A stretch of 64,000 nucleotides of DNA. Origin: Tethya wilhelma (Eukaryota > Porifera > Demospongiae > Tethyida > Tethyidae). The notes beneath the pieces were generated by a model that was given only the letters and a program-made list of their open reading frames with translations, was not told the origin of the DNA and made no database searches. The DNA lies in contig CAXIPT010000008.1 of NCBI GenBank assembly GCA_964030475.1, positions 604,072-668,071 on the forward strand. The letters are read 5' to 3'. This document shows positions 3,687 to 61,362 of the stretch, piece by piece; positions within the stretch are counted from its first letter, which is position 1; each line of letters starts with the position of its first letter. The position numbers and the translations under genes were made by a program.

Positions 3687-3722
<36 letters not shown>

Positions 3723-6763: not shown

Positions 6764-8995
6764 TTAGTTTATTGGGTTAACTTCATCTCTATTTATAAGC
6801 TGGGTATATTCACCACCAGCTGCACTGCCACGGCGCCTCCTTTTGGATGACTTATATTGCTTGTAAGCTGCAAACACCACACCAGCTATAACGGCACCAA
6901 GAAGGATAGTAAGAATGACAGAAACAGCAGCAATTACAACATTTCCAGTATTATTTCCTGTAGCTGGTGGTACTGGTCGTGGTGGGGGATTAGAATGCCA
7001 CTCACCAATCTCCTTCAGAAGTTCCTCTCCAGTCTTCGCACCACTAGTTTCTTCTATTCCCCAAGTTCCATCTTCTAATCTCACCCATGTTGTACCATAT
7101 AAGCCTGAAACCACAAGAGTTTGAGTTATGTTAGCCTTGTACTTAGGATATTTCCTGAATGGAGGCAGTCTGGCAGGTAGAAGAGTTTGATCTGTATATG
7201 ATCCTATATGTACACAAAAGTTGATCTCACATCCTTCATCAACAGCTACTAGATGTTGGGAAAAACCATGAGGGCACATTCTTGGCCACTTGTCTTGCGA
7301 TTGGTTACCGTCAGCTGCCAAAGGATTCCCAACTTCACAACTATCAAACCCAGCAAATGGAATAGAATATTCCATTCCTTTTTCATAATCATCACTGACA
7401 CAAACTTGAATGTCTTCTCCCATATGTATTTTGTAAAAAAATTGTGGACATGTCTTAGATCCAGTGAATGGATTGCTAGCAGTTGTAGTATAAACTCCAC
7501 CAAAAAGGTAGCCGAAGTTCTGAGGTACTATGACCCCAGGTAAGGCTGCACACCAATAGGCTTCATAACTAGCTTGGCTTATAATTATTAGTTGGGCATT
7601 CTGACAATGACAGCATCTACTCCATCCAGCAAAGCCACAATGATCACATACAGACTTACAATATGGTTTCTTTGTTGTGTGTGTAACATTTCCAGAGTGT
7701 AGTTTAATCGCTGTATAGGATTGTGGGCAAGTGAAGTCACCTGTCAGTGGATTTTTCTGCTCAGCTGGATTTGGTCCACCAGTACAGAGATCTATGCTAT
7801 TATGATCTGGATCCACTGTACATGTTTGATAGACTCCACCAAATGACAAATTTGTGACTGGTGGTTTACAAGATCCATCATCTAAATTTGCTTGAAAATT
7901 AAAGTTTGGGGAGCTGAGATTTGTACATCCTAGACGAGTGTTTGCTTTGTAGTACCTGTTGATGGCACTGTAGATAACATCTGCAATCTCTTGGACAGTT
8001 GTTTCAGGAAGCTCAGGCAATGTACTTGGAGTGATTGCTAAATGAAGAGGCTCACCACTTCGATCAATTGCAGCCAGAGCATTAGGTACACCCTGTAGCC
8101 AGTCTGAATAGTTTTGCTCAAAAGGTGGTCCACCATGTGTGCTGAATGTTGAATGCTTCCGATTTTGTAGATATGCAGATGTATCAGTGTCTCTTTGTAA
8201 TGAGGCATAAAGCTGAGATCCAACAAAAAATATTCCAAAAAATGAAGCACTTGCTTCATCAGTAATAGACTTGTCATCAGAGTATTTTGATAATACATGG
8301 TCAGTTTGCGACATTATTGCTCCAGCATCTACTGATGTGACATAATGGGTTCCAAAGTCTCGAATTATAAGTTCGGCAAGGTAATGCACAAGATCAGTGT
8401 TGTTGTTTTGGAGGTGAGCAGCAATTTCAAAGAGACGAGACTTGAAATCGGGGTGAAGTAGACTCTCTTCAGTAAGCATTATCGTGTAAAGAAGGTGGCG
8501 TACCTGAACACGAGTAGTTGTAGATAAGTCATTCACCATATGCGACTTAACACTCATGTAATCCTGTGAGAACCTTGCACTGATGGGAAAGAAAAGGAGC
8601 CCAGAATGTTGATTGATAGTGAAGGCAGAAATCGAAGTGTGTTTATCCCAGTGGTCAAAAAATTCAGAATAAACTTCAACAGTGCTTTCGTGATGAGGGA
8701 ACAGGTGCACATTGTCTGGGAGAAGGTATTTGCCATCACTGGATAGCTTGCAATTGGAGTAGTTGTGGAAATGAGTGTGTCGCATGTCGACATTTCGAAG
8801 ATTGTCAAACCCAGTGCCAGGCAACACTCCAATTGTCATCAGATCCAGAGGAGAGGGGTCACAGACAACTCCTGACGAACGACATTGATAAAGACAATTA
8901 TGCATATCTCCTGGAGGATATGGAGCCAGCTGTTGGTGACTACATTGTACTAGTACACAGACTAGGAAACTGACCACATAGAAAAAACTGAGCAT
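6764..8995 (-). CDS. MPEG1: Macrophage-expressed gene 1 / perforin-2, copy A
   Basis: A single open exon encodes 743 residues, close to the roughly 700 of vertebrate MPEG1. Residues 1-18 form a signal peptide. A MACPF domain fills the N-terminal half, with a Y-V-T-S-V-D-A-G-A signature near residues 218-226. The Cys-rich second half contains paired blocks beginning FGGVYQTC and FGGVYTTT. One transmembrane helix lies at about 683-707, followed by a basic cytosolic tail with a YTQL tyrosine sorting signal. MPEG1 is a pore-forming effector delivered to endosomes and phagosomes to attack engulfed microbes; that role is from the family. The intronless structure matches MPEG1 elsewhere and contrasts with the intron-rich neighbours. 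It is one of three full copies and one fragment in this window, all on the minus strand. No break is seen. Confidence 0.95.
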   Translation of the reverse strand: MLSFFYVVSFLVCVLVQCSHQQLAPYPPGDMHNCLYQCRSSGVVCDPSPLDLMTIGVLPGTGFDNLRNVDMRHTHFHNYSNCKLSSDGKYLLPDNVHLFPHHESTVEVYSEFFDHWDKHTSISAFTINQHSGLLFFPISARFSQDYMSVKSHMVNDLSTTTRVQVRHLLYTIMLTEESLLHPDFKSRLFEIAAHLQNNNTDLVHYLAELIIRDFGTHYVTSVDAGAIMSQTDHVLSKYSDDKSITDEASASFFGIFFVGSQLYASLQRDTDTSAYLQNRKHSTFSTHGGPPFEQNYSDWLQGVPNALAAIDRSGEPLHLAITPSTLPELPETTVQEIADVIYSAINRYYKANTRLGCTNLSSPNFNFQANLDDGSCKPPVTNLSFGGVYQTCTVDPDHNSIDLCTGGPNPAEQKNPLTGDFTCPQSYTAIKLHSGNVTHTTKKPYCKSVCDHCGFAGWSRCCHCQNAQLIIISQASYEAYWCAALPGVIVPQNFGYLFGGVYTTTASNPFTGSKTCPQFFYKIHMGEDIQVCVSDDYEKGMEYSIPFAGFDSCEVGNPLAADGNQSQDKWPRMCPHGFSQHLVAVDEGCEINFCVHIGSYTDQTLLPARLPPFRKYPKYKANITQTLVVSGLYGTTWVRLEDGTWGIEETSGAKTGEELLKEIGEWHSNPPPRPVPPATGNNTGNVVIAAVSVILTILLGAVIAGVVFAAYKQYKSSKRRRRGSAAGGEYTQLINRDEVNPIN

Positions 8996-10110
8996 TGTTA
9001 CTTGTGAGCTTCTGTTTGCAGATCAGTGAGCTACAGTAATAATGTAATAATAATAATAGATCTGCTTATTATTATATGCCTACATGGTCAGCAGTGAATT
9101 AAGTTATGAACCATAATTATAAATATGCATGTAAAAATAATCCCTGGGTAACACCCTGCTACATGAATAGAACTAAAATTGTGAAGAGCTAGCAAAATGA
9201 ATAAACCTCTAATAATTATTATGAATCATAAAAAAGGAAATAAGATGGAATGGTTGCATTATTAGATTGTGAATAATTCTTCCTATATATTGGCTGAATG
9301 ATGAACTTGGCATGAAAAAAATAGTACCATATGGCCCGGAAAATTTGACAGCGCTAGCCCTGCCAGGCCATAAATTTTTTTTTTATGCTGAGGCTGGAAG
9401 TTGGCCATACTGATTACAGCTGGCTGCATGTGTCTTATTATGTTTTTATCATTTAAACAGCTTTTTAGCAATCATGGCATTTATTAGCAATTTACTTTAT
9501 TTTCAGTGCCAGATTGTGCAGAGTGTAGTACTCTATCTTGTCTACATTCGGACCCCTTTGACCCGGCACTGAGCTATCCCGGCATACCCTCTCAATGGTG
9601 TGCTCTGCTCCCCTATAGCTCAAGCAGGCACATGGGAATTGGCTTTTTATGTGATCATTCTTGCCCAATGGCTAGAACTTAACTATAAACATTATGGTCC
9701 TGTAGAACCCCAGATATGCTCTTCTTTCCATATAAAGCACACTGGCCAAACTTGCACCAAAATTAATTCTGAATTGTCTCACAATAATTAATTCACAGCA
9801 GAAATCAGGTCCACAATAATATTTGCCAAAGCAATGGCTTTCCTCATATATAATTCATAATCATGTTATTTATGAGATAATAAATATCACTATTTATTCA
9901 TAATATGCTGTACTTGCATGTACATGACTCATTATCCTCAAGGGATTAATAGTTATTAACATGGTTCACATGTTTTTTTTCAAAAAAAATTTATGGCAAT
10001 TGGAACTGACATTGCAACAGTTGTTATAATAATATATAAATTAAACAAACTCACTTTGACTATTACACTACTATTTAGTGCAGCATATGGACAAAGATAT
10101 CAACAAACAT
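8996..10110. other. Spacer without a recognisable gene
   Basis: This A/T-rich region lies upstream of MPEG1 copy A. Stops are frequent in all frames and I recognise no conserved domain, RNA gene or long repeat. It should contain the copy A promoter, but I cannot point to a defined element. Confidence 0.6.
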
Positions 10111-14276: not shown

Positions 14277-14770
14277 TCAGTTAACTTCATCTCTATTTAT
14301 AAGCTGGGTATATTCACCACCAGTTGCACTGCCACGGCGCCTTCTTTTGGAGGACTTATATTGCTTGTAAGCTGCAAACACCACACCAGCTATAACGGCA
14401 CCAAGAAGGATAGTAAGAATGACAGAAACAGAAGCAACTACCACATTTCCAGTATTATCCCCTGAAGCAGCGGGTGCATGATATGTGCCCATCGCTCTTA
14501 AAAGTTGTCCTCCAGTCTCTTTAGCACCAGCAGTTTCTTCTATTGCCCATGTTCCATCTTCTAATCTCACCCATATCATACCATATAAACCTGAAACCAC
14601 AAGGGTTTGAGTGATGTTGGCCTTATGACTTCAGATATTTCCTAAGTCTAGGGGGTAGAAGAGTCTGAACTGTACTGTATATAATCCTATATGTACACAG
14701 ACTGAAGTTGATGTCACATTCTTCATCGAAAAGCTACAAGATGTTGGGAAACTTGAACCATGAGGGGGCA
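14277..14770 (-). pseudogene. MPEG1: Truncated MPEG1 copy B (C-terminal part only)
   Basis: The last 107 codons (14277-14600) nearly match copy A: the segment GLYGMIWVRLEDGTW, a transmembrane helix, and a tail with YTQLINRDEVN. Farther 5' (14600-14770) homology to copy A continues but is broken by frameshifts and small deletions. It stops near 14770, so the MACPF domain and signal peptide are missing. It cannot encode a working perforin. The close match to copy A points to recent duplication of the copy A region. Confidence 0.92.
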
Positions 14771-16742: not shown

Positions 16743-18977
16743 TCAAGGTGTTGATTCAGCTGCAGGCAGATCATTAAGCTGCTTGTAGTCTGCAGACTGA
16801 CGCTTAGGTTTGGTAAGCTTGCGTAGCTTGTAAAAATAGCAACCAGCAAACACTGGTGCTATGATGATTGCACCAAGTACGACAGAACCAAGAAACGAAA
16901 GTAGTCCAATTGTCAGCTCTCCAGAGCTCCCAACTGCTGAGCTAGCTGGCATAGTGATGTTTGAGCCATTGTCTTTGGAGAATTCTTCTATAAGTTCCTC
17001 TCCAGTTTTTGCACCCGAAGTTTGTGTTGACCATGTTCCATCTTCGTTCTTCATCCATATCTCACCATATAGACCCACAACCACTAGAGTATCAGTGACA
17101 TTTAATTTGTACTTAGGATGCTTTCGGAATGGAGGAAGTCTAGCAGGTATGAGAGTGTCTGCTGCACTTTTATAATGCTCTAAGTGCATACAAAAGTTAA
17201 TATCACATCCATTATCAACCGCTATCAAGTGTTGGGCATATCCATGTGGACAAGAATGTGGCCAGCTATCACCAGCAGAGTCTGCAGCAAGAGGATTTCC
17301 AACTTTACAGCTGTCGAATCCAGCAAATGGTAGAAAATTGCTAGTGGCTTGTATTTGTTTATAATCTGCACTGACACACACCTGGATGTCATCTCCCATG
17401 TGCAGAGGAGAGAAAAGATTGGGACAAGACTTGGCACCAGTAAATGGATTGCTAGCTGTTGAAGTGTAAACCCCTCCAAAGAGATAGCCATTAGTCTCAG
17501 GTATGTTAGTGCCAGGTAAAGCTGTACACCAGTAGGCCTCATAAAAAGCGCGACTCAAGATATTCACAAGTACATTTTGACATTGGCAATTGTATCGGGT
17601 CCAACCAAAGTGGTCACAGACTTCTCTACAATATGCCTTCTGAATGGTACGTGTGACAGTTCCAGTGTAAAGTTCTATTGGTACATAGTTTTGAGGACAA
17701 CTAAAGTTACCAGTGAGTGGGTTGACTTGTTGAACAGGATTTGGACTACCAGTGCAAATATCCTCAGTAGCAAAATTTGGATCAACTTTGCATGTTTGAA
17801 AGACTCCTCCAAATTTGAATGTGCTAATTGGAGCTTGGCAAATTCCATCATCCAAATTAGCTTGAAAATTGAAATATGAATTGTTAGGATTTGTGCATCC
17901 TAGACGAGTGTTCACTTTGTAGTACCTATTGATGGCACTGTAGATAACATCAGAAATTTCTTGAACAGTTGTTTCGGGAAGCTCAGGCAGTGCTGTTGGA
18001 GTGATGGCGAAGTGAAGAGGTTCACCTTTTCTATCGATAGGTACTAGGGTGTTTGCAATACCCTGTTGCCAATCTGAATAGTTTACAAAAGGGGGTCCAC
18101 CATGTGTGTAAAAGGTTGAATGCTTAAGATTTTGGGTATAACCTTGTGTATCAGTATTTGCATTTACAGCTATATTTGCAAATGCATGACCAGAAAAAAA
18201 TTTAAGATAAAAGCCAGCACTTGCTGAAGCAGCGAGAGTTTCAGAGTGGCTAGAAGAATAATCTGATGCAATGTGGTCAGTTTGGGACAGTATTGCTCCA
18301 GCATCCATTGAAGTAACATAGTGAGTACCAAAATCACGAACTATCAGTTCAGCCAAGTAATGCACAAGATCTGTGTTGTTGTTTTGGAGGTGAGCAGCAA
18401 TTTCAAAAAGACGAGACTTAAAATTGGGGTGAAGCTGATGGTCTTGACCAAGCTGTACGACATAAAGCAAGTGGCGAACCTGGACTCGTGTTGTAACAGA
18501 CCTGTCATTCACCATGTGTGATTTTACACTCACGTGATCTTCAGAGTATATCCCACCTGAAAAGAATCCAATTGAAGCCTTGTTAATAGATGAGGCAGTC
18601 AAAGAGGTATGCTTGTCCCAATGGTCAAACTTTTCAGAAAATATGTCAACAGTAGATCCATGGCGGGGGAACAGGAATACATTGTCAGGGAGCAGGTACT
18701 TGCCATCATTGGATATTTTGCAGGTGGAGTAGTTGTGGAAATGAACATGTCCAAGATCAAAATTACGAAGGTTGTCAAATCCAGCTCCAGGCATCACTTC
18801 CATTCCGAATACCTCAGCTGGGAGTGGGTCACAAACACCATTGGCCAACAGTGAACATTTTATGTGGCAGTTTCGCACATCTCCAACTGGATATGGAGGA
18901 AATGCAGTTGATTTGTCATGGTTGTCTTGCGCTAGTACACCTGCTACAAGAGCTAGAAACAAACAGAATATCTGCAT
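16743..18977 (-). CDS. MPEG1: Macrophage-expressed gene 1 / perforin-2, copy C
   Basis: A single-exon protein. I start it at ATG 18977 because this gives a normal signal peptide (MQIFCLFLALVAGVLAQ). The in-frame ATG at 19082 adds 35 residues that lack homology to copies A and D. The MACPF signature reads HYVTSMDAGA. Cys-rich blocks FGGVFQTC and FGGVYTST follow in the same order as copy A, then a transmembrane helix. The tail is shorter and less basic than in A and D, and the sorting signal is YKQL. As in the family, the likely role is pore formation in compartments holding engulfed microbes. The frame is intact throughout. Confidence 0.94.
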   Translation of the reverse strand: MQIFCLFLALVAGVLAQDNHDKSTAFPPYPVGDVRNCHIKCSLLANGVCDPLPAEVFGMEVMPGAGFDNLRNFDLGHVHFHNYSTCKISNDGKYLLPDNVFLFPRHGSTVDIFSEKFDHWDKHTSLTASSINKASIGFFSGGIYSEDHVSVKSHMVNDRSVTTRVQVRHLLYVVQLGQDHQLHPNFKSRLFEIAAHLQNNNTDLVHYLAELIVRDFGTHYVTSMDAGAILSQTDHIASDYSSSHSETLAASASAGFYLKFFSGHAFANIAVNANTDTQGYTQNLKHSTFYTHGGPPFVNYSDWQQGIANTLVPIDRKGEPLHFAITPTALPELPETTVQEISDVIYSAINRYYKVNTRLGCTNPNNSYFNFQANLDDGICQAPISTFKFGGVFQTCKVDPNFATEDICTGSPNPVQQVNPLTGNFSCPQNYVPIELYTGTVTRTIQKAYCREVCDHFGWTRYNCQCQNVLVNILSRAFYEAYWCTALPGTNIPETNGYLFGGVYTSTASNPFTGAKSCPNLFSPLHMGDDIQVCVSADYKQIQATSNFLPFAGFDSCKVGNPLAADSAGDSWPHSCPHGYAQHLIAVDNGCDINFCMHLEHYKSAADTLIPARLPPFRKHPKYKLNVTDTLVVVGLYGEIWMKNEDGTWSTQTSGAKTGEELIEEFSKDNGSNITMPASSAVGSSGELTIGLLSFLGSVVLGAIIIAPVFAGCYFYKLRKLTKPKRQSADYKQLNDLPAAESTP

Positions 18978-19334
18978 AGTGCCGTAGTAGCATGTAGTTT
19001 GGTACCACAACCAATTGCAGAATAAATGGTAAATTAACATAGTATAATGAATATTTATGCTTAAATTTTGGTGAATAGGCAAAATTAGGGAACAATCATA
19101 TCTTTGTAATCAGCAAGCTAGCATTCACTATTGTGATGAGGATGTACTTTCCCATTGGTATCTATAGTGATCAGGACAAAGTTCAGTAATGAGTCACTGC
19201 CTTGTTATTCAGTAAACAAAATTAAAATCATTATAAGTTGCAGCTAGACATGCATACCCTATACACATTGTGTACATTACATTCATGAACGGTACATTTG
19301 TGGGATTACAAAACTATGCATATTAATGTGTTTA

Positions 19335-20354: not shown

Positions 20355-23300
20355 TACACTTGCCTCTGTGATCATGTGTCGTATGCCACTCCAGGAGATG
20401 GGTTTGACTCCACTGGTACCTGGTGGCACCAACTCAGATGCCTTGAACTCCCTCTTCAAGTAGTGAAGAGTATCCTAACAAAAATACATACATAATACAC
20501 TGAATAATCAGATGCTCATTCTACAACAATGAATACAACTATTGACAAAATTATTACTCCATTATTTGCACACCAACTACAACATGTGCCCCTGAATCAG
20601 TGATTTACACAAATAAGCACTGCTAGATAGACAAACATGAAACACTGAGGGAGTGGCCTGGCTACAAGGCTACTGCTTGACCACTACCTAGCAAGTTAGT
20701 AGCCTCATTGCCAAGCTCATACATCAAAGCTTCAAAAAATATAAAGTTCAAAGCTTCAAAAAATTTAATAGCTATGAAATTCAATCTTGAGAAACAAGAT
20801 TGGTACCAAACACAGTATACATTAAACAACACAGATCTGAAGCTCTTAAACATATAGAGATTAGGCATCCATGGATGTGCTGAGTGGAAGCTAGCTATAC
20901 AAATCTTGACTAACCATCAAGTGAGCTGCCGTCCAGGGATACAACTTCTTCCAAGCATACTTGTACGTATAGATCCTAAGTCTCAGTGTCCCATGAAGCA
21001 AGATCATAGCATGCAAGAGAGGCAGCCACTCAGGACGAGATAAAGCGGGTAAGATATCCGTACTCAAATTCATCAGGTGGTATACCATGCTGGTGAAAAT
21101 CTTGTACGGCGAATCCAAAACCAGCTTGCAAGCACGACGCAGAAGTGGCAGAGGTAGCACATTACAGTCACTGTCCACTGAGAGCCACAGTCTCCAGTTG
21201 TCTTGAGGAGGAAGGCTCTCCAACAGTGGTAGAAGCTGAGCGAGCAGGTCAGGAGAGGACTGACAGTTGTGGAGATAGACCCACTTGCCCTCTGCACTTG
21301 CACGCTCAACAGCTTGTAAGGCATGTTGTAGTTCTATGGGACAGCACCCATGGAGGTGACAGGATGTGAGCTCCACCTGGATATGATATGACAAAATCAG
21401 AAACAACTTGTGGTTCAAATCCTTTTGTAAGAGCATAGTTTGCTGACTGTCTAAACACTAGTGAAGAGAGTACAACATGCTAGCATTATAATAGTTCAAC
21501 TTACATTCAATTTCTGTGCAACTTGTTTTAGTTTCTGTAAGGGTGTATTTGGGTCTTCTCTGAACAGGAATATCGGTACCATGTCTGTAGAGAGTGATTT
21601 TGCGATCCTGGCAATCTCGACAGGAGTGATACTGTAGTTGGGTTTCTTCTGCTTTGGTCCAGGAGAGAGGACGCGATTGACAAATGAGACAATGAAGGAA
21701 ATGATTCTCTCTGGCCTCATGGCACACATGATGAGCAGCTCTTGCATGGGGAAGAGTCTGGATAGATTGAAGGAAAGAGGGGAAAATGGCTGAAACATGA
21801 AACACTGACTAGAAACGCTTTGCTTTTGATGGAATTCATAACTCATTTGTCGTGAGTACAACACTCACCATCACTACAATTCATTCATGAAGTACTTACT
21901 TGTGTCCAATTGATTCTGAGAGATTTATCATCTCAGGTGCTACACCTTCACTGATGGTCCTCCACACTGCCTCCTTCCCTGCTTTGCCGAGCTGCTCTAT
22001 CACCTCGTGGATCCAAGAAAAGTTTGATGCAATCATCTGTGCAAAGATATAGGCATAAAGGGTGTGAATAGGATCACATTGACTTGATCAAGCTTTGGGA
22101 AATGGGGGTGGGCACAAAAAAGTTGATATGGAATGATAGCATAAAGGGATCACATTGATTTGATCAAGCTTTAGGGAGAAAAAAAAACATTTGATATTGA
22201 TTGTACCAGAAGTGCCTGCCATTGAGTGTCTAGCATCCAGTCAAATGTCTTCTTGCCAAAGTTGACTGCCACTTGTCCAGTTCCTCCATCACTCGTTGGT
22301 GCTACAAGTCCACGTACGGTAAACTGATGACCCGTAGAGGGAGAGACGAGGAAATCCTGCTCTCTCCTTGTAGTTCTTCCATTGGCAATCTCAATCTGTA
22401 ATGTGTGGTATTTACAAGCTCACAGCACACATATGGTATATAGAGTCAGAGTAGGAATAATATTGTATATACCTCCTGTGCAAGAATGAAACTGAAGAAG
22501 AGTCTGTCTCGCTCAAAGTATCCACGCACCAAGAAGTTGAATGCTGCTCTAGTCATGTTAACAAGTGCATCTTCACCTTGAATTCGACTGTAGCATGTAC
22601 AACATAGAAGATCAAAATAATAAATTATGTATGTATATATATATATAACTATAAGATTCTCTTTCTTTTTTTTTGTAACAAGAGACTAAGTCGGAATCGA
22701 ACTCAAAACCTCTTGATCACTAGTCATGCACTCTTACCACTAAGCCATCAAGTGCCTGCGCCATTTGCACAGATGATGTGTATCTATAAGCCTTAGTTAA
22801 CTCCTTGTAAATGTCACATACCTCCCAGCTTGTTCAATAAAGGCTAGAAACACAGACTGGATGGTCTTGTAGGAGGTTTGGTAGACTGGTAGTAGAGTGC
22901 CCATGGAACAGGCCACATCCATCATCACACTGGCCTGAGACGCCAAGGTCTTTAGGACAACTAAATGAACTTCTTCCATTTGGGAGTAGCCAAAGAGAGC
23001 ATTCTTGAGACTACAGACAAAGACACACACAATGAAATGGGAGTTCTTCATGGCTATATACAACATCGTATTCTCTCACGTTTCTTGTGCATCCTCATAG
23101 GCCTTGTTGAGTGTGAGAATGCTCTTGTTGGCTTGAGGCTCTTCAATTTGTCCAACATCAGCACCGGCCAAAAGTTGCAAGAGTTTCTCTTCACAAGATT
23201 GTGATTTGACAGTTTGATTGTAGATTTCCAGTCGGAACTGTTCGCGATCGTGGAAAGTCTTTGCATTCTGTAGCTCCAGGAACGAATCGAGAAGAAGACC

Positions 23301-25161
23301 CTGCATCCCTTTCCTCTCTGGATGAAACACGATGACACAAGTGAGAGAGAAGATGGTGGGAGGAATGGATGAGACCAGCTCCGATGAGACCAAGACCAGT
23401 TTGAAGTTAGGACTGCATTCAACTTCTTTGCCTCCAATCTAAGGGGGAGAGATGAAGAGGATGGTAATCAAGTATTGAAACTGTGTTTGATTCACTTACC
23501 ATGATTTTCAGCATGCTCTTGGCTTTGTGAAATAGTCGCCGACATTCCAATACATCTAGCAATGTCTTATCCTCTGCTAGCTGTACTGTGTCCACTTCAG
23601 TTATGATCAAAGTCTTTCCATTAAAAATACACTTCAATAGAGTAGCATGGAGATCCTTGTTCTACAAATACATACACAATTCATGACTGTAAACTATACT
23701 TTGTGATTCAAAACTGCCAGGAAATTCACCTTGTGTTTTATGACAACTGGATCAGTCTCTTTCCTCACAAGCCAGTCCTCAACCATCCCTAGAGAGTCCA
23801 GGATCAGTGGCCACGCTCGTGTGTGTGAATGAGCAATGATGCATGCATTCTGCTGAGTAGTCAAATCAGGCGAGAGCCCCTCCATCACAAAATGAAACAC
23901 AGAAGGCTGAAGAAAATGAAAAAGGCTTAAAATAAGTTTTGCTAGTTGTAGACTAGGCTCACCTCTCCCACCATGAATGATGGGTACGATGACAGAGTTA
24001 GGAGGTTGTGTTGATCGTGGCTATCAGTGACCAGGAAGCTGTGTGAGGTACAAATGCCCAACAAAGACTCGTACACTTTGTATCGAGCACTGGTCTTGAG
24101 AGGACCGCAGTAGACTGTAAGAGCTGCAGCAAGGATGCAGTTAGCTGTCAACATGTCTGATCCAGGGAGTGAGTCAAGCCTAGTCTGCCACGCTGTCTGT
24201 CTGGCTTTTAAGCTAGATACATTTGGAGAAACAAAAAGAGAAATAGAAAACTGGATTTACTACATGTATACGGAATAAAAAATTCATTGTCTGTGGTGTA
24301 CAGTATCGTGTGTGTGTCTGTTAACGCCAAGTTGGTCCATTAGCTCAGTCGGTAGAGCGTCGTGCTGATAACGCGAAGGTCGTGAGTTCGAGACTCACAT
24401 GGACCATTCTCTCTCTTTTTTTTTCTTACTTTCTATTTTCTCAAAAATATACCTTTCTAGCAAGTGGTTAGCAGATTTCAACCTCTCGGCTAGCTGCTGA
24501 CAGGTCTGTTCCAGTGAGTGCTTCTCAATGACCGCCTTATCAAACTGCTCCTGGAGAGCACACAGCTCCGATTGCAGTCTCTCCACATCTTCCTCCCCCA
24601 TCTCGGACTCCTCTGGCACATCCTCCAAATCTGGCGGCTCAGATTTGCGAAGCTCCAACAAGCCGTTTGGATCTGCTTGTAGCGACAACTCTAGCTTTCT
24701 GAACTCCTCTTGTGCTCTGCAAAATTAACATACAATCCTTAAAATCAAGATTGTGTGGAGTGATGTGTATACTTACCTCTTTAGTTGTTCACACGCTTTT
24801 TTATATGGCTGAAGAGAATCGTTGAAGGAGACAATGGAGACAGCAAAGGCACACATTGAAGCAGCAGACTCAGCAGCATGGCGGGCCATGGACACTGTGA
24901 TGAGATGACCGGGCTCACCCAAAGAGCTCTCAGTGGAAACACTTTGACGAAGGCTTTCAGAACTTGTTGTTTTGTAAGTATCTTCGACAGCCAGCTTAGA
25001 TTTGATCAAGTTGACAGCATCAGGAGATAGTCCTTCCTCCCATTTCAAACCATTCAAGAGGTCTAAAAACTTCTGTGAATCGCCAATTGCTATCTGAACG
25101 CTGTTCCACTGTTCTCTCTCCATCTTGGAAGTCTCTGTTGCACCTGCTGAAGAAGAGACGA
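20355..25161 (-). CDS. Dynein heavy chain, stalk to late C-terminal exons (separate block, partial)
   Basis: About thirteen exons on the minus strand run from the microtubule-binding/stalk region (24776-25143) through CC2 (24452-24719, DVERLQSELCALQEQFDK). AAA5/AAA6 follow (23962-24214, 23736-23908, 23499-23660, 23081-23438, 22822-23010, 22471-22587), then the C-terminal region (22208-22395, 21899-22035, 21504-21758, 20914-21377, 20355-20474). Family landmarks include LTANCILAAALTVYCGP, the segment WVYLHNCQSS (canonical dynein W-V-x-L-Q-N-C-H) and ISWSGIRHMITE. The last exon ends at a GC-type donor (GAG|gcaagt). Residues 22492-25161 are a near copy of 41078-43731. The block is bounded by Ns at 19433 and 25162 and appears displaced: its next exon is at 30955, to the right. 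Confidence 0.85.
22676..22764 (-). repeat. tRNA-like element with Pol III boxes (a)
   Basis: The minus strand reads TGGCTTAGTGGTAAGAG (A-box type) and, about 35 nt later, GAGTTCGATTCC (B-box type). The acceptor ends do not pair and no clean anticodon stem forms. I therefore call it a tRNA-derived SINE or dead tRNA, not a gene. A near-identical copy is at 41256-41342. Confidence 0.7.
24334..24406 (+). tRNA. tRNA-Ile (anticodon GAT), copy 1
   Basis: A 73-nt cloverleaf. The acceptor stem GGTCCAT pairs with ATGGACC, with discriminator A. The D arm is GCTC/GAGC. The anticodon stem TCGTG/CGCGA holds loop CTGATAA (anticodon GAT). The T arm GTGAG/CTCAC has loop TTCGAGA. A and B boxes are intact and a T-run follows. 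It lies antisense in a dynein intron. Nuclear isoleucine tRNAs of animals usually read AAT, so GAT is the minor type. Confidence 0.95.
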
Positions 25162-25289
25162 NGCCAACTTATTAGTAGGAATTTGAACCAATGGTCTAAT
25201 GCAATAATATAAGCTATATGACACTATTGTACAGATCATTGTATTATAATATATAACACTGAGGATCGATCCGTATGAGGAATCAAGAA

Positions 25290-26209: not shown

Positions 26210-28462
26210 TTAATTTATTGGGTTAACATCATCTCGATTTATAAGAGAAGCATATTCACCTGCACATGCACGACGCTTCTTTCTAGGTGTCCAGCACTGC
26301 TTGTAAACAGCAAACACAAAAACTATAACAATCACACCAATAAAGAGAGAGCCGATAACTGAAACCACAGTGATAAAAACTTCTGATGAAGAACTTTCTG
26401 CTGCTGGCTGTGTGCTATTGCTATTACTTGAACTTTCACCTAAAGCTCTCAAAAGATCATCTCCAGTTTGTGCACCAGAAGCCTCCTTTTGCCATGTTCC
26501 ATCTTCTCTCTTTATCCATGTGTCACCATACAAACCAGAAACCACAAGAGTCTCGGTGATGTTTGATTTATGCTTTGGATGTTTTCTGAATGGAGGAAGC
26601 CTGGCAGGTAGAAGGGTCTTGTTTGCTTTAAAAAATCCTGTGTGTATACAGAAGTTAATTTCACATCCTTCATCAACAGCAACCAGGTGTTGCGCATATC
26701 CGTGAGGGCAGGTTTTTGGCCAGTTTGCTACAGAATTCGAAGTCATATTTTTTTTATTTTTAGGATCAGCAGCAAGAGGATTTCCAACTAGACAACTATC
26801 AAATCCTGCAAATGGTAATGAATACATAGTGCCTTGTTCGTAATCAGTGCTCACACAGACCTGGATATCTTCTCCCATATGTAGAGGGATAAAATAGCGA
26901 GGACATGACTTTGCTCCAGTAAAAGGATTGCTAGTAGCTGCAGTATAAACCCCACCAAAGAGGTAACCACTATTGTCTGGTATAGTTGTACCAGGTAAAG
27001 CAGCACACCAGTAGGCCTCATAAGTAGCTTTACTTAAGAAGTCCGTAAGGACATTTTGGCACTTGCAGCATCGATGAGTTCCCCATGTACCACAATGTTT
27101 GCAGACATCATGACAGACATTCTTTTTGGTAACATGTGTGACTGTTCCAGAATGCAACTGTATTGGAACATATTTATCAGGACAGGTGAAGTCATCAGTG
27201 AGTGGATTAACCTGTTGAGCAGGGTTTGGACCACCAGTGCAAAGATTCTCTGTGTTAAAAGTTGGGTCAGTAAAACATTTTTGGAAGATCCCTCCAAACG
27301 ATAAATTAGTTATTGGTGGTTTACAAGACCCATCATCTAAATTTGCTTGAAAGTTAAAATTCGGATCATTAGGATTCGTACAACCTTCTCGAGTATTTAC
27401 TTTATAGTATCTGCTGATTGCACTGTAGATAATATCTGCAAGTTCTTGTACAGTAGTCTCAGGAAGCTCGGGCAATGTGGTGGGTGTAATGGCAAAATGA
27501 AGAGGTGCACCATCTCGATCAATGGCTACCAGAGCATCGGCAATACCTCTCTGCCAATCTGTATAGTTTTCAAAAGGAGGCCCTCCAAGTGTAGAAAATG
27601 TAGAATATTTTACATTTGAGGTATAATCATCTACTTTTGCTTGACCAGCTAGAGATGCATATAGAGAACCAGATAAGAATTTTTCTTGAAAATCAATACT
27701 TGCTGAAGCAGACACTGTGTTGATGGAAGAATAGTTAGCTGATATGTGGTCAGTTTTTGACATTACTGCTCCAGCCTCCATGGAAGTGACAAAGTGAGTT
27801 CCAAAGTCATGAACTATGAGTTCGGCCAGGTAATGTACAAGATCTGTGTTGTTGTTTTGCAAATGGGCAGCAATTTCAAATAGACGAGACTTAAAACTGG
27901 GATGTAGCTGTCTGTCTTGACCTAGTTGAACAGTATATAGTAAGTGACGAACTTGAACACGAGCAGCCATGGTAAGATCATTTACCATATGTGATTTTAC
28001 ACTCATGTAATCCTGTGAATACAGACCACCTGAAAAAAATCCAACAGAAACTTTATTGATTGATGAAGCAGTCAAGGAAGTGTGCAGGTCCCAGTGGTCC
28101 ATAAATTCTGCAAATGTTTCAACAGTAGACCCATGGCGAGGAATAAGGAACATATTGTCTGGAAGGAGGTATTTGCCATCATTAGATAGCTTGCAGCTCG
28201 AATAGTTGTGGAAATGAACAAGCCCCATGTCAATATTTCGAAGGTTGTCAAATCCACCTCCGGGCATGACCTCCATTCCGATCACATCTGCTGGGAGTGA
28301 ATTACATTCAGTGTCATGATCAAGTATATGCAGAGAGCAATGCACACGACAGTTGCGCACATCTCCCAAGGGATATGGAGTAGCAGGTGTCACAGATTTT
28401 TGAAAACTGTCTTGCACTAGCACACAGGCTAGAAAGGCTATGTAATAATAGTAAATCTCCAT
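26210..28462 (-). CDS. MPEG1: Macrophage-expressed gene 1 / perforin-2, copy D
   Basis: A single exon of 750 codons. It has a signal peptide (MEIYYYYIAFLACVLVQ), a MACPF domain with HFVTSMEAGA, Cys-rich blocks FGGIFQKC and FGGVYTAA, a transmembrane helix and a basic tail with the YASL sorting signal and the ending RDDVNPIN (copy A ends RDEVNPIN). A Ser/Asn-rich linker precedes the membrane helix. Family knowledge places it in endosomes and phagosomes as a pore-forming antimicrobial effector. A perfect TGCGCATGCGCA palindrome lies about 110 bp upstream of the start. Its 5' neighbour is the authentic dynein C-terminal exon, so this is probably the ancestral position from which the other MPEG1-plus-dynein-tail units were copied. 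Confidence 0.95.
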   Translation of the reverse strand: MEIYYYYIAFLACVLVQDSFQKSVTPATPYPLGDVRNCRVHCSLHILDHDTECNSLPADVIGMEVMPGGGFDNLRNIDMGLVHFHNYSSCKLSNDGKYLLPDNMFLIPRHGSTVETFAEFMDHWDLHTSLTASSINKVSVGFFSGGLYSQDYMSVKSHMVNDLTMAARVQVRHLLYTVQLGQDRQLHPSFKSRLFEIAAHLQNNNTDLVHYLAELIVHDFGTHFVTSMEAGAVMSKTDHISANYSSINTVSASASIDFQEKFLSGSLYASLAGQAKVDDYTSNVKYSTFSTLGGPPFENYTDWQRGIADALVAIDRDGAPLHFAITPTTLPELPETTVQELADIIYSAISRYYKVNTREGCTNPNDPNFNFQANLDDGSCKPPITNLSFGGIFQKCFTDPTFNTENLCTGGPNPAQQVNPLTDDFTCPDKYVPIQLHSGTVTHVTKKNVCHDVCKHCGTWGTHRCCKCQNVLTDFLSKATYEAYWCAALPGTTIPDNSGYLFGGVYTAATSNPFTGAKSCPRYFIPLHMGEDIQVCVSTDYEQGTMYSLPFAGFDSCLVGNPLAADPKNKKNMTSNSVANWPKTCPHGYAQHLVAVDEGCEINFCIHTGFFKANKTLLPARLPPFRKHPKHKSNITETLVVSGLYGDTWIKREDGTWQKEASGAQTGDDLLRALGESSSNSNSTQPAAESSSSEVFITVVSVIGSLFIGVIVIVFVFAVYKQCWTPRKKRRACAGEYASLINRDDVNPIN

Positions 28463-28573
28463 TGCTGGATATAGCAGAATGAACCTTGATTCACTGTTTA
28501 GGCTGCCTATTACTAATAGCGATTTGCTGCCAGCTTTTATGGGCAGTGAAACGGTTGTAGCGAAAACAGAAAC

Positions 28574-28585
28574 TGCGCATGCGCA
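28574..28585. promoter_or_regulatory. NRF-1-type palindrome upstream of MPEG1 copy D
   Basis: The sequence TGCGCATGCGCA fits the NRF-1/alpha-Pal consensus exactly. It lies in a locally GC-rich patch (28560-28622) 112 bp upstream of the copy D start codon. No such site is seen upstream of copies A or C. Binding is inferred from the motif alone. Confidence 0.55.
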
Positions 28586-28728
28586 AAAGTTTGTGAGGCC
28601 GGCGCCAGCGCGCGTGCGTAGCTAGATATAGACAAAGTGTGATAATAAAAAAAAATATTGTACATCAATCAATACCTATGAACTAAAAATGTTGTGTTTT
28701 TTTATACTTGAGTAATTGTGTGCATATT

Positions 28729-31148: not shown

Positions 31149-32150
31149 ATGGCATCGCCCAGCTACAGTGAGCAAGATATCCTTCAAAAATACCGAGACA
31201 GCTTTTACAAAAATAGACAAGAACTGATCACTACTCTAAGGACCGGGTTTTGGAAAGTCCCACTGGTTAATTCAGGCTGTTTGACAGAAGAGGAGTGGGG
31301 TACAGTTGAAGAAAAGAGTAGCAGTGCCAATGGGAAAGACAAAAGAACCAACAGAGCCACAGCCATCATAGACCTTGTGAAACAAAAGGACAGCTTCTCG
31401 TGCTACAGAGCATTTAGTAGAGTTTTTATGGACAAGAACAAGTTAGTTGGGTTAAGAATTTTCCCATTTGTTCAGGAGTTACAGGAGGCTGGTCTTCATG
31501 TCCCATTACGACCTACAAGGCCAGTGACAGAGGGACCACGAAGACCACTGGACTCTACACCGACTATAGTATGGGCACTATCGAATGAAAGAGAATGCGA
31601 AGCAGTCACGAGAGAAATGAAACTAACAAATGGTAGTGTGGCAAACAGAGCTGGTTTTCGTTGCCAGGAATTCCCCATCAATTCAGCTTCTCTCTGTGTG
31701 GTCTGTCCCAGTACTCCTTACGATGGAAACAATCCATTCAAGAGTCTGCTGAGTAGCCTTTGTCCTCAGCTAGCTGTGATGACAAGCACTTGCCAACCAG
31801 TTAGAGGGAACACAACATTCACGGCAAACCAAGTTGTCTTGATGACAAGAAAGGAGCCTGACAATATTTCTGGTGAGGTGGCATTCATGTGTGAACTGTG
31901 GAGACTGCAGAACAAAACACTGTTGCCAGTGGTGCTTGGAAGAGCAACCAAGTTGGAAGATGATAATAATCCCTCGTTTGTACGATGTCGCGATGCCGTG
32001 GATTTTTATAATGCAGCAGTGAAGGTGGACAATTTGGAGTATTTTGCTCTGTTAGAGGTTGAAGGTCAGAGCGGTCACACAGCTATCAGTGGCAATGTAC
32101 TTCAGTTGATGAGCGAGTTAGTCACATACTTTTCTGATGATAGAATTTGA
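31149..32150 (+). CDS. CARD protein with nucleoside-phosphorylase-like C-terminal half
   Basis: A single exon of 333 codons. Residues 9-103 read as a death-fold/CARD domain: helix 1 around YRDSFYKNRQELITTL, the turn GCLTEEEW typical of CARD helix 3, and RATAIIDLVKQKDSFSCYRAF as helices 4-5. After a basic, Pro-rich linker, residues 137-325 resemble the PNP/UDP phosphorylase fold: TIVWALSNERECEAV as the opening strand-helix, PQLAVMTSTCQPVRG as the glycine-loop strand, ANQVVLMTR, then SGEVAFMCELWR followed by LLPVVLGRAT. The catalytic residues cannot be assigned, and the fold call rests on pattern alone. CARDs join signalling complexes by homotypic contacts; nucleosidase-like domains occur as effectors in immune proteins of fungi and animals. 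No signal peptide. The frame is intact. Confidence 0.65.
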   Translation: MASPSYSEQDILQKYRDSFYKNRQELITTLRTGFWKVPLVNSGCLTEEEWGTVEEKSSSANGKDKRTNRATAIIDLVKQKDSFSCYRAFSRVFMDKNKLVGLRIFPFVQELQEAGLHVPLRPTRPVTEGPRRPLDSTPTIVWALSNERECEAVTREMKLTNGSVANRAGFRCQEFPINSASLCVVCPSTPYDGNNPFKSLLSSLCPQLAVMTSTCQPVRGNTTFTANQVVLMTRKEPDNISGEVAFMCELWRLQNKTLLPVVLGRATKLEDDNNPSFVRCRDAVDFYNAAVKVDNLEYFALLEVEGQSGHTAISGNVLQLMSELVTYFSDDRI

Positions 32151-41077: not shown

Positions 41078-42800
41078 CTGAAGAAGAGTCTGTCTCGCTC
41101 AAAGTATCCACGCACCAAAAAGTTGAATGCTGCTCTAGTCATGTTAACAAGTGCATCTTCACCTTGAATTCGACTGTAGCATATACAACATAGATCAAAA
41201 TTAATAAATCATGTATATGTAACTATAAGGTTCCTTTTTTTTTTTCTTTTTCTTAACAAGAGACCAAGTCGGAATCGAACTCAAAACCTCTTGATTACTA
41301 GTCAGGCACTCTTACCACTAAACCATTAAGTGCCTGTGCCATTTGCACGGAAGATGTGTATCTATAAACCTTAGCTAACTCCTTGTACATGTTACATACC
41401 TCCCAGCTTGTTCAATAAATGATAGAAACACAGATTGGATGGTCTTGTAGGAGGTTTGGTAGACTGGTAGTAGAGTGCCCATGGAACATGCCACATCCAT
41501 CATCACACTGGCTTGAGATGCCAAGGTCTTTAGGACAACCAGATGAACTTCTTCCATTTGGGAGTACCCAAAGAGAGCATTCTTGAGACTATAGACAAAG
41601 AAAAACACAATGAAATGGGGACTTCTTCATGAATACAACACTCTCACATTTCTTGTGCATCTTCATAGGCCTTGTTGAGAGTGAGAATGCTCTTGTTGGC
41701 TTGAGGCTCTTCAATTTGTCCAACATCAGCACCGGCCAAAAGTTGCAAGAGTTTCTCTTCACAAGATCGCGATTTGACAGTTTGATTGTAGATTTCCAGT
41801 CGCAGCTGTTCGCGATCGTGGAAAGTCTTTGCATTCTGTAGCTCCAGAAACGAGTCGAGAAGAAGACCCTGCATCCCTTTCCTCTCTGGATGAAACACGA
41901 TGACACAAGTGAGAGAGAAGATGGTGGGAGGAATGGATGAGACCAGCTCCGATGAGACCAAGAGCAGTTTGAAGTTAGGACTGCATTCAACTTCTTTGCC
42001 TCCAATCTAAGGGGAGAGATGAAGAGGGCGATGATCAAGTATTAAAATCATTTATGACTTGCTTACCATGATTTTCAGCATGCTCTTGGCTTTGTGGAAT
42101 AGTCGCCGACATTCCAATACATCTAGCACTATCTTATCCTCTGCTAGCTGCACTGTGTCCACTTCAGTTATGATCAAAGTCTTTCCATTGTAAATGCACT
42201 TCAATAGAGTAGCATGGAGATCCTCGCTCTACAAATACATACACAATTAACAACTGTAAAATATATACTATATGATTTAAAACTGCCAGGAAATTCACCT
42301 TGTGTTTTATGACAACTGGGTCAGTCTCTTTCCTCACAAGCCAGTCCTCAACCATCCCCAGAGAGTCCAGGATCAGCGGCCACGCTCGTGTGTGTGAATG
42401 AGCAATGATGCATGCATTCTGCTGAGTAGTCAAATCAGGCGAGAGCCCCTCCATCACAAAATGAAACACAGAAGGCTGAAGAAAATAAAAAAGGCTTAAA
42501 ATAAGTTTCGCTAGTTGTAGACTAGGCTCACCTCTCCCATCATGAATGATGGGTACGATGACAGAGTTAGGAGATTGTGTTGATGGTGGCTGTCAGTGAT
42601 CAGGAAGCTGTGTGAGGTACAAATGCCCAACAAAGACTCGTACACTTTGTATCGAGCACTGGTCTTGAGAGGACCGCAGTAGACTGTAAGAGCTGCAGCA
42701 AGGATGCAGTTAGCTGTCAACATGTCTGATCCAGGGAGTGAGTCAAGCCTAGTCTGCCATGCTGTCTGTCTGGCTTTTAAGCTAGATACATTCGGAGAAA
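41078..42800 (-). CDS. Dynein heavy chain, AAA5-AAA6 exons (main block)
   Basis: Exons encode the same proteins as 22492-24214 with a few substitutions. Landmarks are LTANCILAAALTVYCGP (start of AAA5), EGLSPDLTTQQNACIIAHS, TLIITEVDTVQLAED, and ECSPNFKLLLVSSELVSSIP (AAA6 region; canonical dynein has a short NPNFRLYL-type strand here). LKNALFGYSQMEEVHLVVL follows. At 41078 this block is truncated in mid-exon and abuts sense OPA1 sequence. Downstream exons exist only in the block at 20355-22395. AAA5 and AAA6 are normally non-catalytic in dyneins. Confidence 0.87.
41256..41342 (-). repeat. tRNA-like element with Pol III boxes (b)
   Basis: The counterpart of the element at 22676-22764, with a few substitutions; the A-box and B-box words are both kept. 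It lies in the same dynein intron of the duplicated segment. Confidence 0.7.
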
Positions 42801-42900
42801 AAAGAAAAAAAAAGAAAACTGGATTACTACGTGTGTACGGAATAAAAAATTCATTGTCTGTGGTATACAGTATCATGTGTATGTCTAATAACACCAAGTT

Positions 42901-42973
42901 GGTCCATTAGCTCAGTCGGTAGAGCGTCGTGCTGATAACGCGAAGGTCGTGAGTTCGAGACTCACATGGACCA
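42901..42973 (+). tRNA. tRNA-Ile (anticodon GAT), copy 2
   Basis: The 73-nt sequence is identical to the tRNA at 24334-24406, while the flanks differ by several bases. Acceptor, D, anticodon and T stems all pair, and a T-run follows. It sits antisense in the corresponding dynein intron of the duplicated segment, so it is the allelic or duplicated counterpart. Confidence 0.95.
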
Positions 42974-42989
42974 TTCTCTCTCTCTTTTT

Positions 42990-44650
42990 TTTTCTTACTT
43001 CCTATTTTCTCAAGAATATACCTTTCTAGCAAGTGGTTAGCAGATTTCAACCTCTCGGCTAGCTGCTGACAGGTCTGTTCAAGTGAGTGTTTCTCGATGA
43101 CGGCCTTATCAAACTGTTCCTGGAGAGCACACAGCTCTGATTGCAGTCTCTCCACATCTTCCTCCCCCATCTCTGACTCCTCTGGCACATCCTCCAACTC
43201 TGGCGGTTCAGATTTGCGATGCTCCAACAAGCCGTTTGGATCCGCTTGTAGCGACAACTCTAGCTTTCTGAACTCTTCTTGTGCTCTACAAAATTAGCAT
43301 ACAATCCTTAAAATCAAGATTGTGTGGAGTTATGTGTATACTTACCTCTTTAGTTGTTCACATGCTTTTTTATATGGCTGGAGAGAATCGTTGAAGGAGA
43401 CAATGGAGACAGCAAAGGCACACATTGAAGCAGCAGACTCAGCAGCATGGCGGGCCATGGACACTGTGATGAGATGACCAGGCTCACCCAAAGAGCTCTC
43501 GGTGGAAACACTCTGACGAAGGCTTTCAGAACTTGTCGTTTTGTAAGTATCTTCAACGGCTAGCTTAGATTTGATCAAATTGACGGCATCGGGAGATAGT
43601 CCTTCCTCCCATTTCAAACCATTCAAGAGGTCTAAAAACTTTTGTGAATCGCCAATTGCAATCTGAATACCATTCCACTGTTCTCTCTCCATCTTGGAAG
43701 TCTCTGTTGCACCTGCTGAAGAAGAGACAAAGGAGGATCTCTTCTTTGGAAGCTGAGGAGTTGAGCCCACTTCTGTGCTGGACCCAAGCTGATGGTCCCC
43801 AACAGTTCCATACTGTTTCAACAGTGTGAGTATGAGTTCCATTATCGTGCCAACAAGGCGTGGAGGATTATTGAGAGATTTGATCTGGTCGATTGTGTTT
43901 CGGTCTATCTTACTGTGCCAGTGGAGGGCATCTTTCTTGGCTTTGATCATTGCTTGTTTTGCTTCGTGTTCTTCTTCTTGTGCAATTTGAAGTTTCTCTT
44001 TGGCTTTTTGCATTAATGCTTCAAGTCGAGAGCTCCTTCTGTCTACAAAAACTGCCAAAAGTTCTTCATCATCTTCTTCATTCTCAAGTAGCATTCTCTC
44101 CTGCTCGGCCACCATTTGCATTGCACTCAAAACACTCGATCCATGACCTAAGATAGCTTTCAGTCGTTCCAGTTGACACGATTTTGCAGTCAAATCACGA
44201 AGAAAGTTCTCAGACTGCTGACTCGCCTTTTCATGCTGTTGCTTCAGCTTCTTAAGAGTGTTCTTCATTTCTTCGGCTTCTTGCTGAGTAGCATGTAGTG
44301 TCTGAAGAGCGCAAGTCAAATTCTTTTTCTCCTCAGCTATCTCTGAGTTTTTCTTTCTAAAGAGCTCACAGAAACATTCAAGAAACTGCAAGTAAGTTCT
44401 CAAACCAACATAAGGTAGCTGAAGCTCAACACTGTGCTTGTTTCCACGCAGAACTCGGTTCAGCTTCAAGACATTCTCCATGAGATACTCAAAAGATGAA
44501 GGGGAGTCTTGAGATTGAGTCATGTCTTCGTGCAAAGGCATAGTGGACGACATCTGCTGAATAACTGAGCTACCGGTATGAGGATGGCTGTCAGGAGTAT
44601 CTTGCCACTTTGGTTGCAGTCCTGCTTGGGTAAGTTGGCCTGTCTCTTGC
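42990..44650 (-). CDS. Dynein heavy chain, stalk coiled coils and microtubule-binding region
   Basis: A long exon (43346 to about 44650) carries CC1, starting LPYVGLRTYLQFLECFCELF. This is the canonical segment before the stalk, where dyneins read TPTSYLELISTF. Dense Glu/Lys heptads follow, then IDQIKSLNNPPRLVGTIMEL, the conserved I-x-E-I-K-S-x-x-x-P-P at the stalk base. A region rich in Ser and Gly (PQLPKKRSSFVSSSAGATE) and SKFLDL-type segments follow. CC2 is in the next exon (43025-43289). The microtubule-binding tip is not well conserved. The DNA up to 43731 is duplicated at 22492-25161. Confidence 0.87.
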
Positions 44651-44799
44651 ATGAAATAGCAATGAACAGAAGACAAGCAGTGGTGAAGAGAACTCCTGTG
44701 TGTATTGGGATACACATACACACAACAAAATATAAGAGTAATCTTATTCTCATGCATGCAGGCTCTCATGCACATCATAATACAAACACAAATTTTAAC

Positions 44800-46340
44800 A
44801 TCTTACCTGTGGTTCTCTTCTACTTGGACAGCCAGTGGGTTGCTGTCGAAGAAGTGGTGTGTTGAGCTGTTCAGAGTGTCATTGGTCCAGTCACACATCC
44901 ATATGATCTGAGATGACTGCAGAATTCCTTTGAAATCACTAAGATCATGAATATGTGTGAAGAGGATTTCTATCAAATTTAGGTTGTCATGATATTTACA
45001 CCAAACACAGCCAATGTCAACTACATTATTGACAGACAGTAGCTTACTTTGCTTGATGGCTGAACAATAGTGAAGTAGGTGGAAGACAGAAGACAAATCG
45101 GAGGTTACGATAAATCCTAGCGATGAAGTATTGCATTGGATCTGTTTCTTCACTTGGAAAGTCTCTCTTGATGGATGGAGCTAGAGCCTACATTTCAATA
45201 CAATCCCAGTATGATACACAATACAGTATACAGTCATGTATGAACATACATACCTGTAGTAGGCCTTCCAACTCATCATTGCTGAATAGAGACACCAGTT
45301 CTCCACAGGCCATTATATTGTTGAGTACATTTAGAACTGACACAGCAGCCAAATGTTTTTCCTATCAGTATACAGCAAAAGAATATCAGCAACCGTGCCA
45401 AAATAAAGAAGACTTAAAAGAGCTATACTCACATTGACTATAACTGCTACAGGCTTTCCCTCCAGGCCAGTCTGCCTGAGCAATGCTCTGAGGCCATCAG
45501 TGAAGACACTCTCCTTGGAGATGTCCAATCCCTGTACCTCATAGCCGGCAATGTAGAGGGCAAAATGAGCCAGGCTCTCAAGAGGCTGTCCCAGCGAACC
45601 GACCAAGATGCTGTTCCCCCTAAAACAGCAAATTACACATCACACAAAATCATAATCCTGTGACTACTTTGTACAACTATTGGACAGAGATACATTTGTA
45701 CATGGTTCAACATAAGAGAATTTACTTGATGAGTTTTAGAGCTCTGTGTAGTTTGACCAGATAGCTGACATTGTGGTCGGAGAGTTCTAGTGTGAACTGC
45801 TCTCCGTGTTCTTCCTGATAGCGCCTCAAGTGGTGGGAGATGGCAATGTGAAGATCATTCCATTGACTCAACGAGTGCAGTCTTATCTGTATAGTGTTTA
45901 TGTTCAGCTTTTGGTTTCAAAATGCATGACACACATGCAGATATTCTAGCCATTTAAATCAGAACAGTATTTGTGTACCTCTGGTAGAACATGTACAGGA
46001 GAAACCACAAATGAAAGTTGCTCCTTTCCTTGTTTGACTTCAGTTGCAATAGCACTCAAAGCCACTGGTTTGGTGGGACTGGAATCATCACCAACAGCAG
46101 TCAACAACTACCAAAGGAAGGGAAGATGAAATGCTTGCATTTCACAAGAGATCTAGTATGTGTGCATTTCTCCTCACCCTCTGGCTGATGGAATCAATGT
46201 ATCCTTGCAGCCATTCTTTGTCACTGACTCGGCACAGGCCATCGGTCAGGGATCTCTTCATCTCATGCGACCACACATAGCTCAACTCACAGCCAATATC
46301 ATCACAGTAACACAGACCCTGCATACACACAATGCCATAC
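44800..46340 (-). CDS. Dynein heavy chain, AAA4 exons
   Basis: The exon at about 45425-45620 encodes the AAA4 P-loop region, GNSILVGSLGQPLESLAHFA. The canonical dynein sequence has GVGGSGKQSL here; in this protein the glycine-lysine of Walker A is replaced by QPLES. The following exons (LNNIMACGELVSLFSNDEL and FIVTSDLSSVFHLLHYC, then the IIWMCDW segment) match the AAA4 large subdomain order. Upstream exons at 45730-45890, 45980-46110 and 46180-46322 lead in from AAA3. Nucleotide binding at AAA4 is therefore doubtful. Confidence 0.82.
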
Positions 46341-61236: not shown

Positions 61237-61362
61237 CGTAACACTCCTCCAGTGGCTGCTGCTGTGTCGTGGGCTAAACAGCTCCTAGTGAGAGTAGAAG
61301 AGCCTATGAAAGTCTTTCGAAGTAATGAAACCATCATGCAATCCATGGTAAGTACGTGTAAT
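61237..61362. repeat. Inverted 126-bp piece of a dynein exon (fold-back junction)
   Basis: This stretch is the reverse complement of 58559-58684 (the PPVAAAVSWAKQ exon with its donor side). It lies directly after the N at 61236. The sequence then turns to forward orientation at about 61362 and continues as a copy of 58681 onward. It is not a functional exon here. Confidence 0.93.

Follow-up and report, generated by a model that had tools for sequence, protein, structure and literature searches.

A candidate immune adaptor of the sponge Tethya wilhelma predicted to join a divergent CARD to a degenerate PNP-like domain

We analysed a stretch of 64,000 nucleotides from Tethya wilhelma (the window), which sits on contig C8 of the sponge's own genome (G000, 124.6 Mb), and studied one open reading frame (ORF) at 31149-32150 that encodes a protein of 333 amino acids (P0001). 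We read this protein, with about as much confidence as doubt, as a two-domain immune adaptor in which a CARD is followed by a degenerate nucleoside phosphorylase-like (PNP) domain that shares ancestry with anti-phage PNP domains of the ATP-nucleosidase type. The ORF is real, residues 8-111 are supported as a divergent CARD, and residues 138-224 are supported by profile comparison as the first half of a Detocs-like PNP domain. This domain is predicted to be a pseudoenzyme that does not cleave nucleotides. The features are listed in Table 1.

The ORF and its N-terminal CARD

Gene level: Counting the codons before the ATG, the frame spans 341 codons, whereas in 30 shufflings of the window the longest frame had 117-214 codons. 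As an open frame, the single-frame gene proposed in a sequence-only reading of the window is therefore confirmed; "intronless" here means one uninterrupted frame in genomic DNA, read without a transcript. The start context is favourable (A at -3, G at +4). The codon score of 0.144 is the highest of the six frames (others 0.025-0.116) and falls under 0.154, the 95% point for random stretches of the window. No homologue of the protein was found at E ≤ 10 among 5.8 billion proteins (2139 candidates). Searching the own genome with the whole protein returned the ORF itself only, and the C-terminal domain gave a single additional match (E 6.5).

Residues 8-111: AlphaFold gives a confident model from the single sequence, which is a six-helix death-fold bundle, and the solved structures that best resemble it include CARDs. 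With a profile from 27 CARDs of the own genome, the domain scored 14.5 bits against a maximum of 7.5 in 2000 shuffles, and hhalign aligned it to the CARD profile with E 1.1e-4. These results uphold the N-terminal CARD of the sequence-only reading. The genome is rich in CARDs, as 30 of the 39 places returned by a whole-genome CARD search clear the Pfam cut-off; the ORF is absent from these 39 places. Nor is its CARD detected by a three-row CARD profile from a second CARD-PNP family described below.

The PNP-like domain

ATP-degrading PNP domains belong to immune modules common to bacteria and eukaryotes, and ATP nucleosidases are reportedly the subject of work by Rousset et al. in 2023. After a likeness between the bacterial locus L115 and the ORF had been noticed by eye, a Detocs-like set of 20 domains was gathered, three of them at loci of bacterial genomes (L115, L116, L155) and 17 in plasmid records. 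Its profile matched the ORF domain in hhalign with a score of 33.6 and E 2.6e-4 over 83 columns (residues 139-224), the order being kept from the first strand through the substrate loop. As three other profiles had been tried before this one, the E-value should be read as about 1e-3. The score compares with at most 23.3 in 500 shuffles and 14.4 for the reversed domain. Among 43 control chunks taken from other frames, two that are true PNP lay above the ORF domain (64.7 and 41.7), and the next were the N-terminal chunk of the same ORF (20.6) and one at 19.9. When the full-length ORF was given to hhalign, residues 137-224 were chosen.

Leaving out L115 gave 30.0, and leaving out L115 and L116 gave 31.7 (500 shuffles ≤ 25.5). 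The 14 plasmid sequences alone scored 33.4, and two halves of the set scored 23.0 and 34.0. Other PNP sets, sorted by eye, reached 11.6 (eight CBASS-like sequences) and 9.0 (11 MTAN-like sequences). We also ranked 58 open frames of at least 200 amino acids from 59 loci of the own genome, with some frames counted more than once where loci overlap; the ORF, an ankyrin-Death-PNP gene, and the second CARD-PNP family made up the top 14 rows. A degenerate pattern of the loop motif occurs at nine places in the genome compared with one in a reversed control, and three of the nine are the ORF and two copies of the second family. The other six were rejected, three for a stop inside the motif and three for lying outside any long frame of that strand.

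Several results weigh against our reading. In plain hmmsearch, the Detocs-like profile gave the ORF 5.6 bits, while one of 2000 shuffles reached 6.5, and across the window two other open frames outscored it (6.1 and 4.9 against 4.3). For residues 225-333, the hhalign score was 13.4 compared with a shuffle median of 12.0, one of the 200 shuffles reaching 35.4. AlphaFold modelled the residues of the PNP-like domain with low confidence (block means of the predicted local distance difference test, pLDDT, of 23-40). The alignment A2, made of RyPNP-type proteins akin to another gene of the own genome, matched the C-terminal domain with E 0.29 only, although A2 negatives are weak because A2 also missed L002, a true PNP of another branch. 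The profile of the second CARD-PNP family does not detect the domain. A mixed set of bacterial PN-superfamily effectors hit the correct loop with its top match, yet at E 0.077; this set has 23 rows obtained via PADLOC family PDLC00759 (L107 and others; 24 of 398 genomes matched), and three of the rows (L111, L114, L121) had been cut wrongly at the ends of contigs and do not represent PNP sequence. At the N-terminus, the CARD models of Pfam and NCBIfam did not match the ORF at E up to 10.

Scans with the curated Pfam PNP_UDP_1 model and other domain libraries gave no match to the C-terminal domain, and the PNP_UDP_1 match expected in the sequence-only reading was not obtained. That reading had placed a PNP/UDP phosphorylase fold at residues 137-325, of which the part up to residue 224 has profile support and the remainder is unmatched. 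Because the plain hidden Markov model, the other profiles, residues 225-333, and AlphaFold all fall short, the whole fold is not demonstrated; we infer that the rest of it is present in the ORF. Aligned automatically with RyPNP proteins or the second family, the ORF gave unstable results, which were not used as evidence.

Active-site residues

Bacterial domains: In L166 numbering, E14, P77, G84, S170, G171, M196, E197, D223, and K229 are invariant in 19 of 19 rows. The count was made on the 19 rows covering each position; one row of the trimmed alignment (L163) was wrongly cut.

Substrate loop: The ORF loop PQLAVMTSTCQPVRG keeps Pro and Met, while G84 and G88 (the latter found in 17 of 19 rows) are replaced by Ser and Pro. 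This is the only change that is firmly placed.

ME pair, Asp, and Lys: These residues of the bacterial immune PNP domain were not recovered in the ORF alignment, which is uncertain in this second half. By eye and without statistical support, AVDFYNAA and LLEVEGQSGH of the ORF stand at the positions of AVEMEGAA and VIRGISD.

As the alignment recovers neither the loop glycine nor the ME pair, Asp, or Lys, the domain is predicted to lack nucleotide cleavage. The earlier suggestion was either an enzyme or an enzyme-dead protein, and the residues favour the latter.

Other genes joining death-fold and PNP domains

L037: The genome CARD search found a second single-exon gene with a CARD and a C-terminal domain at C3:3035588-3036724 (2589-3725 of locus L037). 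A further copy at C3:3060658-3061533 contains two stops, and a partial copy lies at C3:3036925-3037092. L037 shares 57% identity with P0125 and 52% with P0126, both database proteins, over 99-100% of its length (379-385 amino acids, L037 included). Over 167 columns, the C-terminal domain of this family aligned to the Detocs-like set with a score of 55.0 and E 3.1e-7, whereas none of 300 column shuffles exceeded 23.4. Its match to the mixed PN set had E 2.9e-6, and by these profiles the domain is better supported as a PNP domain than that of the ORF. In the alignment, SDSH takes the place of the ME pair, and the Asp is likewise missing. Like the ORF, the family thus encodes a CARD and then, in the same exon, a PNP domain that lacks both the ME pair and the Asp; unlike the ORF, its CARD is recognised by Pfam, and its C-terminal domain is about 80 residues longer. 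The ORF and a protein of this family share 22% identity, and no significant sequence link was found between them. Hence, of the paralogues with the same domain order sought after the sequence-only reading, we have the order but not a significant link.

An AlphaFold model of P0125 with P0126 (mean pLDDT 34.4, the Pfam-recognised CARD included) is uninformative on the fold. The second-family profile found no relative in prokaryote contigs, and P0126 found none in plasmids. Matches of the family in the 398 bacterial genomes were weak (best E 0.0078) and were rejected, the three examined resembling solute-binding proteins. A SurE match of P0125 (E 0.002, below the cut-off) was likewise set aside.

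L039: Positions 711-4914 of this locus on C1 hold ankyrin repeats, a Death domain just short of the Pfam cut-off (22.5 bits; 22.6 required), and then a separate PNP exon or open frame, the exon structure being predicted within one gene region. The PNP domain looks intact, with GEMEG and GVADYGD present, and it belongs to another branch, scoring 347.6 bits with the RyPNP profile and 44.8 with the Detocs-like one. As in the ORF, a death-fold adaptor and a PNP domain occur within one gene region. L039 differs in its ankyrin repeats, in having Death instead of CARD, and in its RyPNP-type domain with a catalytic signature.

Weak places: A genome search with a bacterial Detocs-like domain returned eight weak places (E 0.002 to 0.48), with the ORF not among them. 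Seven lie in open frames of 312-361 amino acids and one in a frame of 998. Three are on C1 within 85 kb, and two on C7 have starts 5.6 kb apart. None of the eight is among the 39 places of the CARD search. They may represent a family of short immune proteins with PNP domains.

Comparison with known systems

Detocs-like effectors: By profile, the PNP domain of the ORF falls in the same branch as those of L160, L115, L116, and most of L161-L176. The loop motif LA-V/I-MT..C..V.G is common to the ORF and L115 by eye. We take the arrangement at L160 to be that of Detocs, and use the name for these loci, in keeping with PMC11249213; the name does not come from a library model. L160 contains a PNP domain and a receiver domain just below the Pfam cut-off, matches PADLOC PDC-M60C, and is preceded by two genes, one long and hypothetical, the other for a response regulator. 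Where L160 has the receiver, the ORF has the CARD, and the active-site residues are present in L160; the domain-library scan found no receiver in the ORF. L173 adjoins a CBASS cyclase. As a side observation, a DUF4231 gene lies directly behind three plasmid PNP genes (L160 1871-2353, SLATT by Pfam; L166 1109-1185; L172 848-945).

Amphimedon and bacterial fusions: PMC8195603 reports proteins of Amphimedon in which TRADD-N stands between one to three Death-like domains and a C-terminus that is possibly PNPase, as well as bacterial fusions of Death-like and PNPase domains. In these sponge proteins, an animal death-fold domain is likewise joined to a PNPase domain. The ORF differs in that its CARD stands directly before the PNP-like domain and the active-site residues are not recovered. 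About 26 residues separate the CARD from the PNP match, which leaves no room for TRADD-N and agrees with the earlier claim that the protein has no NACHT or repeat module.

Fungal receptors: PNP_UDP domains occur in fungal NOD-like receptors (NLRs), according to PMC10197012 and PMC12881547. There the PNP domain of the immune receptor is part of an NLR, whereas the ORF has no such module; domain-library scans of its 333 residues found neither NACHT nor NB-ARC.

A CARD-PNP pseudoenzyme was not named in the literature surveyed, a partial survey with subscription papers largely outside it. The joining of death-fold and PNPase domains is already known in a sponge. What is new here is a shorter, probably enzyme-dead form of this kind of protein, with the CARD directly before a degenerate PNP domain.

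Proposed function and alternative explanations

In the mechanism that we consider most likely, the PNP-like domain would serve as a platform for ligand sensing or oligomerisation. PNP enzymes are trimers or hexamers; if this assembly is retained, several CARDs would therefore be brought together. Clustered CARDs could then seed recruitment of a further CARD adaptor or of a caspase, and a bound nucleotide or foreign protein might shift the balance of clustering. Hence, the dead nucleosidase domain may cluster or gate a CARD switch. If true, a minimal protein of CARD and dead PNP couples a PNP module straight to death-fold signalling in an invertebrate and suggests reuse of an enzyme for sensing or scaffolding. 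This architecture is more than a lone oddity, as a second CARD-PNP family exists, represented also by two database proteins. We consider it quite unlikely, though worth stating, that the lineage keeps short single-exon CARD proteins whose dead PNP domains, relatives of bacterial anti-phage ATP nucleosidases, sense nucleotides and would set off CARD signalling upon disturbance of nucleotide pools or of intact nucleosidases, with the eight weak PNP frames as the active arm.

The C-terminal domain may not be PNP at all, the match at 138-224 then reflecting convergent alpha/beta similarity. We regard this as unlikely but serious, as only half the domain matches, with a modest E-value, plain hmmsearch and several of the PNP profiles do not detect it, and the structure prediction gives no support. 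However, neither the shuffles nor the best unrelated chunk (19.9) reach 33.6, the match is ordered, and the sister CARD family carries, at the corresponding position, a PNP domain with stronger support. If the domain is PNP, it might still be active and cleave ATP, dATP, or another nucleotide upon CARD clustering by means of substituted residues. Divergent enzymes can relocate catalytic residues, the closest profile is Detocs-like, and the best-described Detocs cleaves ATP, according to PMC11249213. Yet five residues invariant in the bacterial rows, namely the loop G, M and E of the ME pair, D, and K, are not recovered, and Ser and Pro stand for two loop glycines, which makes activity very unlikely.

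A dead PNP domain could also act as a dominant-negative or decoy that joins oligomers of intact PNP effectors present in the same cell, such as the ankyrin-Death-PNP protein, and restrains them or reports their disruption. The genome holds such an intact-looking gene (L039), and active immune enzymes often have inactive partners, but the PNP domain of L039 is from another branch, and we consider this role very unlikely. Least probable is a gene that serves no function at present, either decaying or a lineage-specific orphan: homologue searches were empty and PNP motifs are poorly conserved, whereas the frame is intact over its 341 codons, the start context is favourable, and the CARD still folds in prediction.

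Neighbourhood in the window

Three long MACPF ORFs lie upstream on the minus strand, and we take this array to be perforin-2-like. The earlier placement beside a perforin-2 array is right as to the MACPF ORFs, with perforin-2 a putative name. Their nearness is no evidence for a shared pathway.

Table 1 Features of the window and weak Detocs-like places in the genome
Feature	Position	Strand	Basis or remark
CARD-PNP-like ORF, 333 aa	31149..32150	+	single open frame; ATG at 31149, stop 32148-32150
CARD (divergent, supported), residues 8-111	31170..31481	+	AlphaFold model, structure matches, CARD profile
Linker, residues 112-137	31482..31559	+	pLDDT drops; falls between the two profile matches
Detocs-like (bacterial immune) PNP domain, first half (supported), residues 138-224	31560..31820	+	hhalign
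Altered GICAG-type loop, residues 206-220, PQLAVMTSTCQPVRG	31764..31808	+	alignment; Ser and Pro in place of two loop glycines
C-terminal region, residues 225-333	31821..32147	+	expected place of PNP second half; unmatched by profiles tried
MACPF ORF	6767-9022	-	upstream of ORF
MACPF ORF	16746-19109	-	upstream of ORF
MACPF ORF	26213-28621	-	upstream of ORF
Weak Detocs-like places	C10:2785423, C4:4879521, C1:19883868, C7:2243590, C1:19968223, C2:699527, C7:2237989, C1:19917481

A stretch at 14280-14630 on the minus strand resembles the tail of a fourth MACPF ORF. Downstream, exons on the plus strand resemble OPA1 by eye; a Pfam scan of one exon returned nothing. Near-identical sets of open frames at 58636-60708 and 61288-63426 on the minus strand are apparently a recent tandem duplication. 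Near-identical open frames also occur about 18.5 kb apart at 23057-25168 and 41592-44802 (minus strand), flanking the CARD-PNP ORF.
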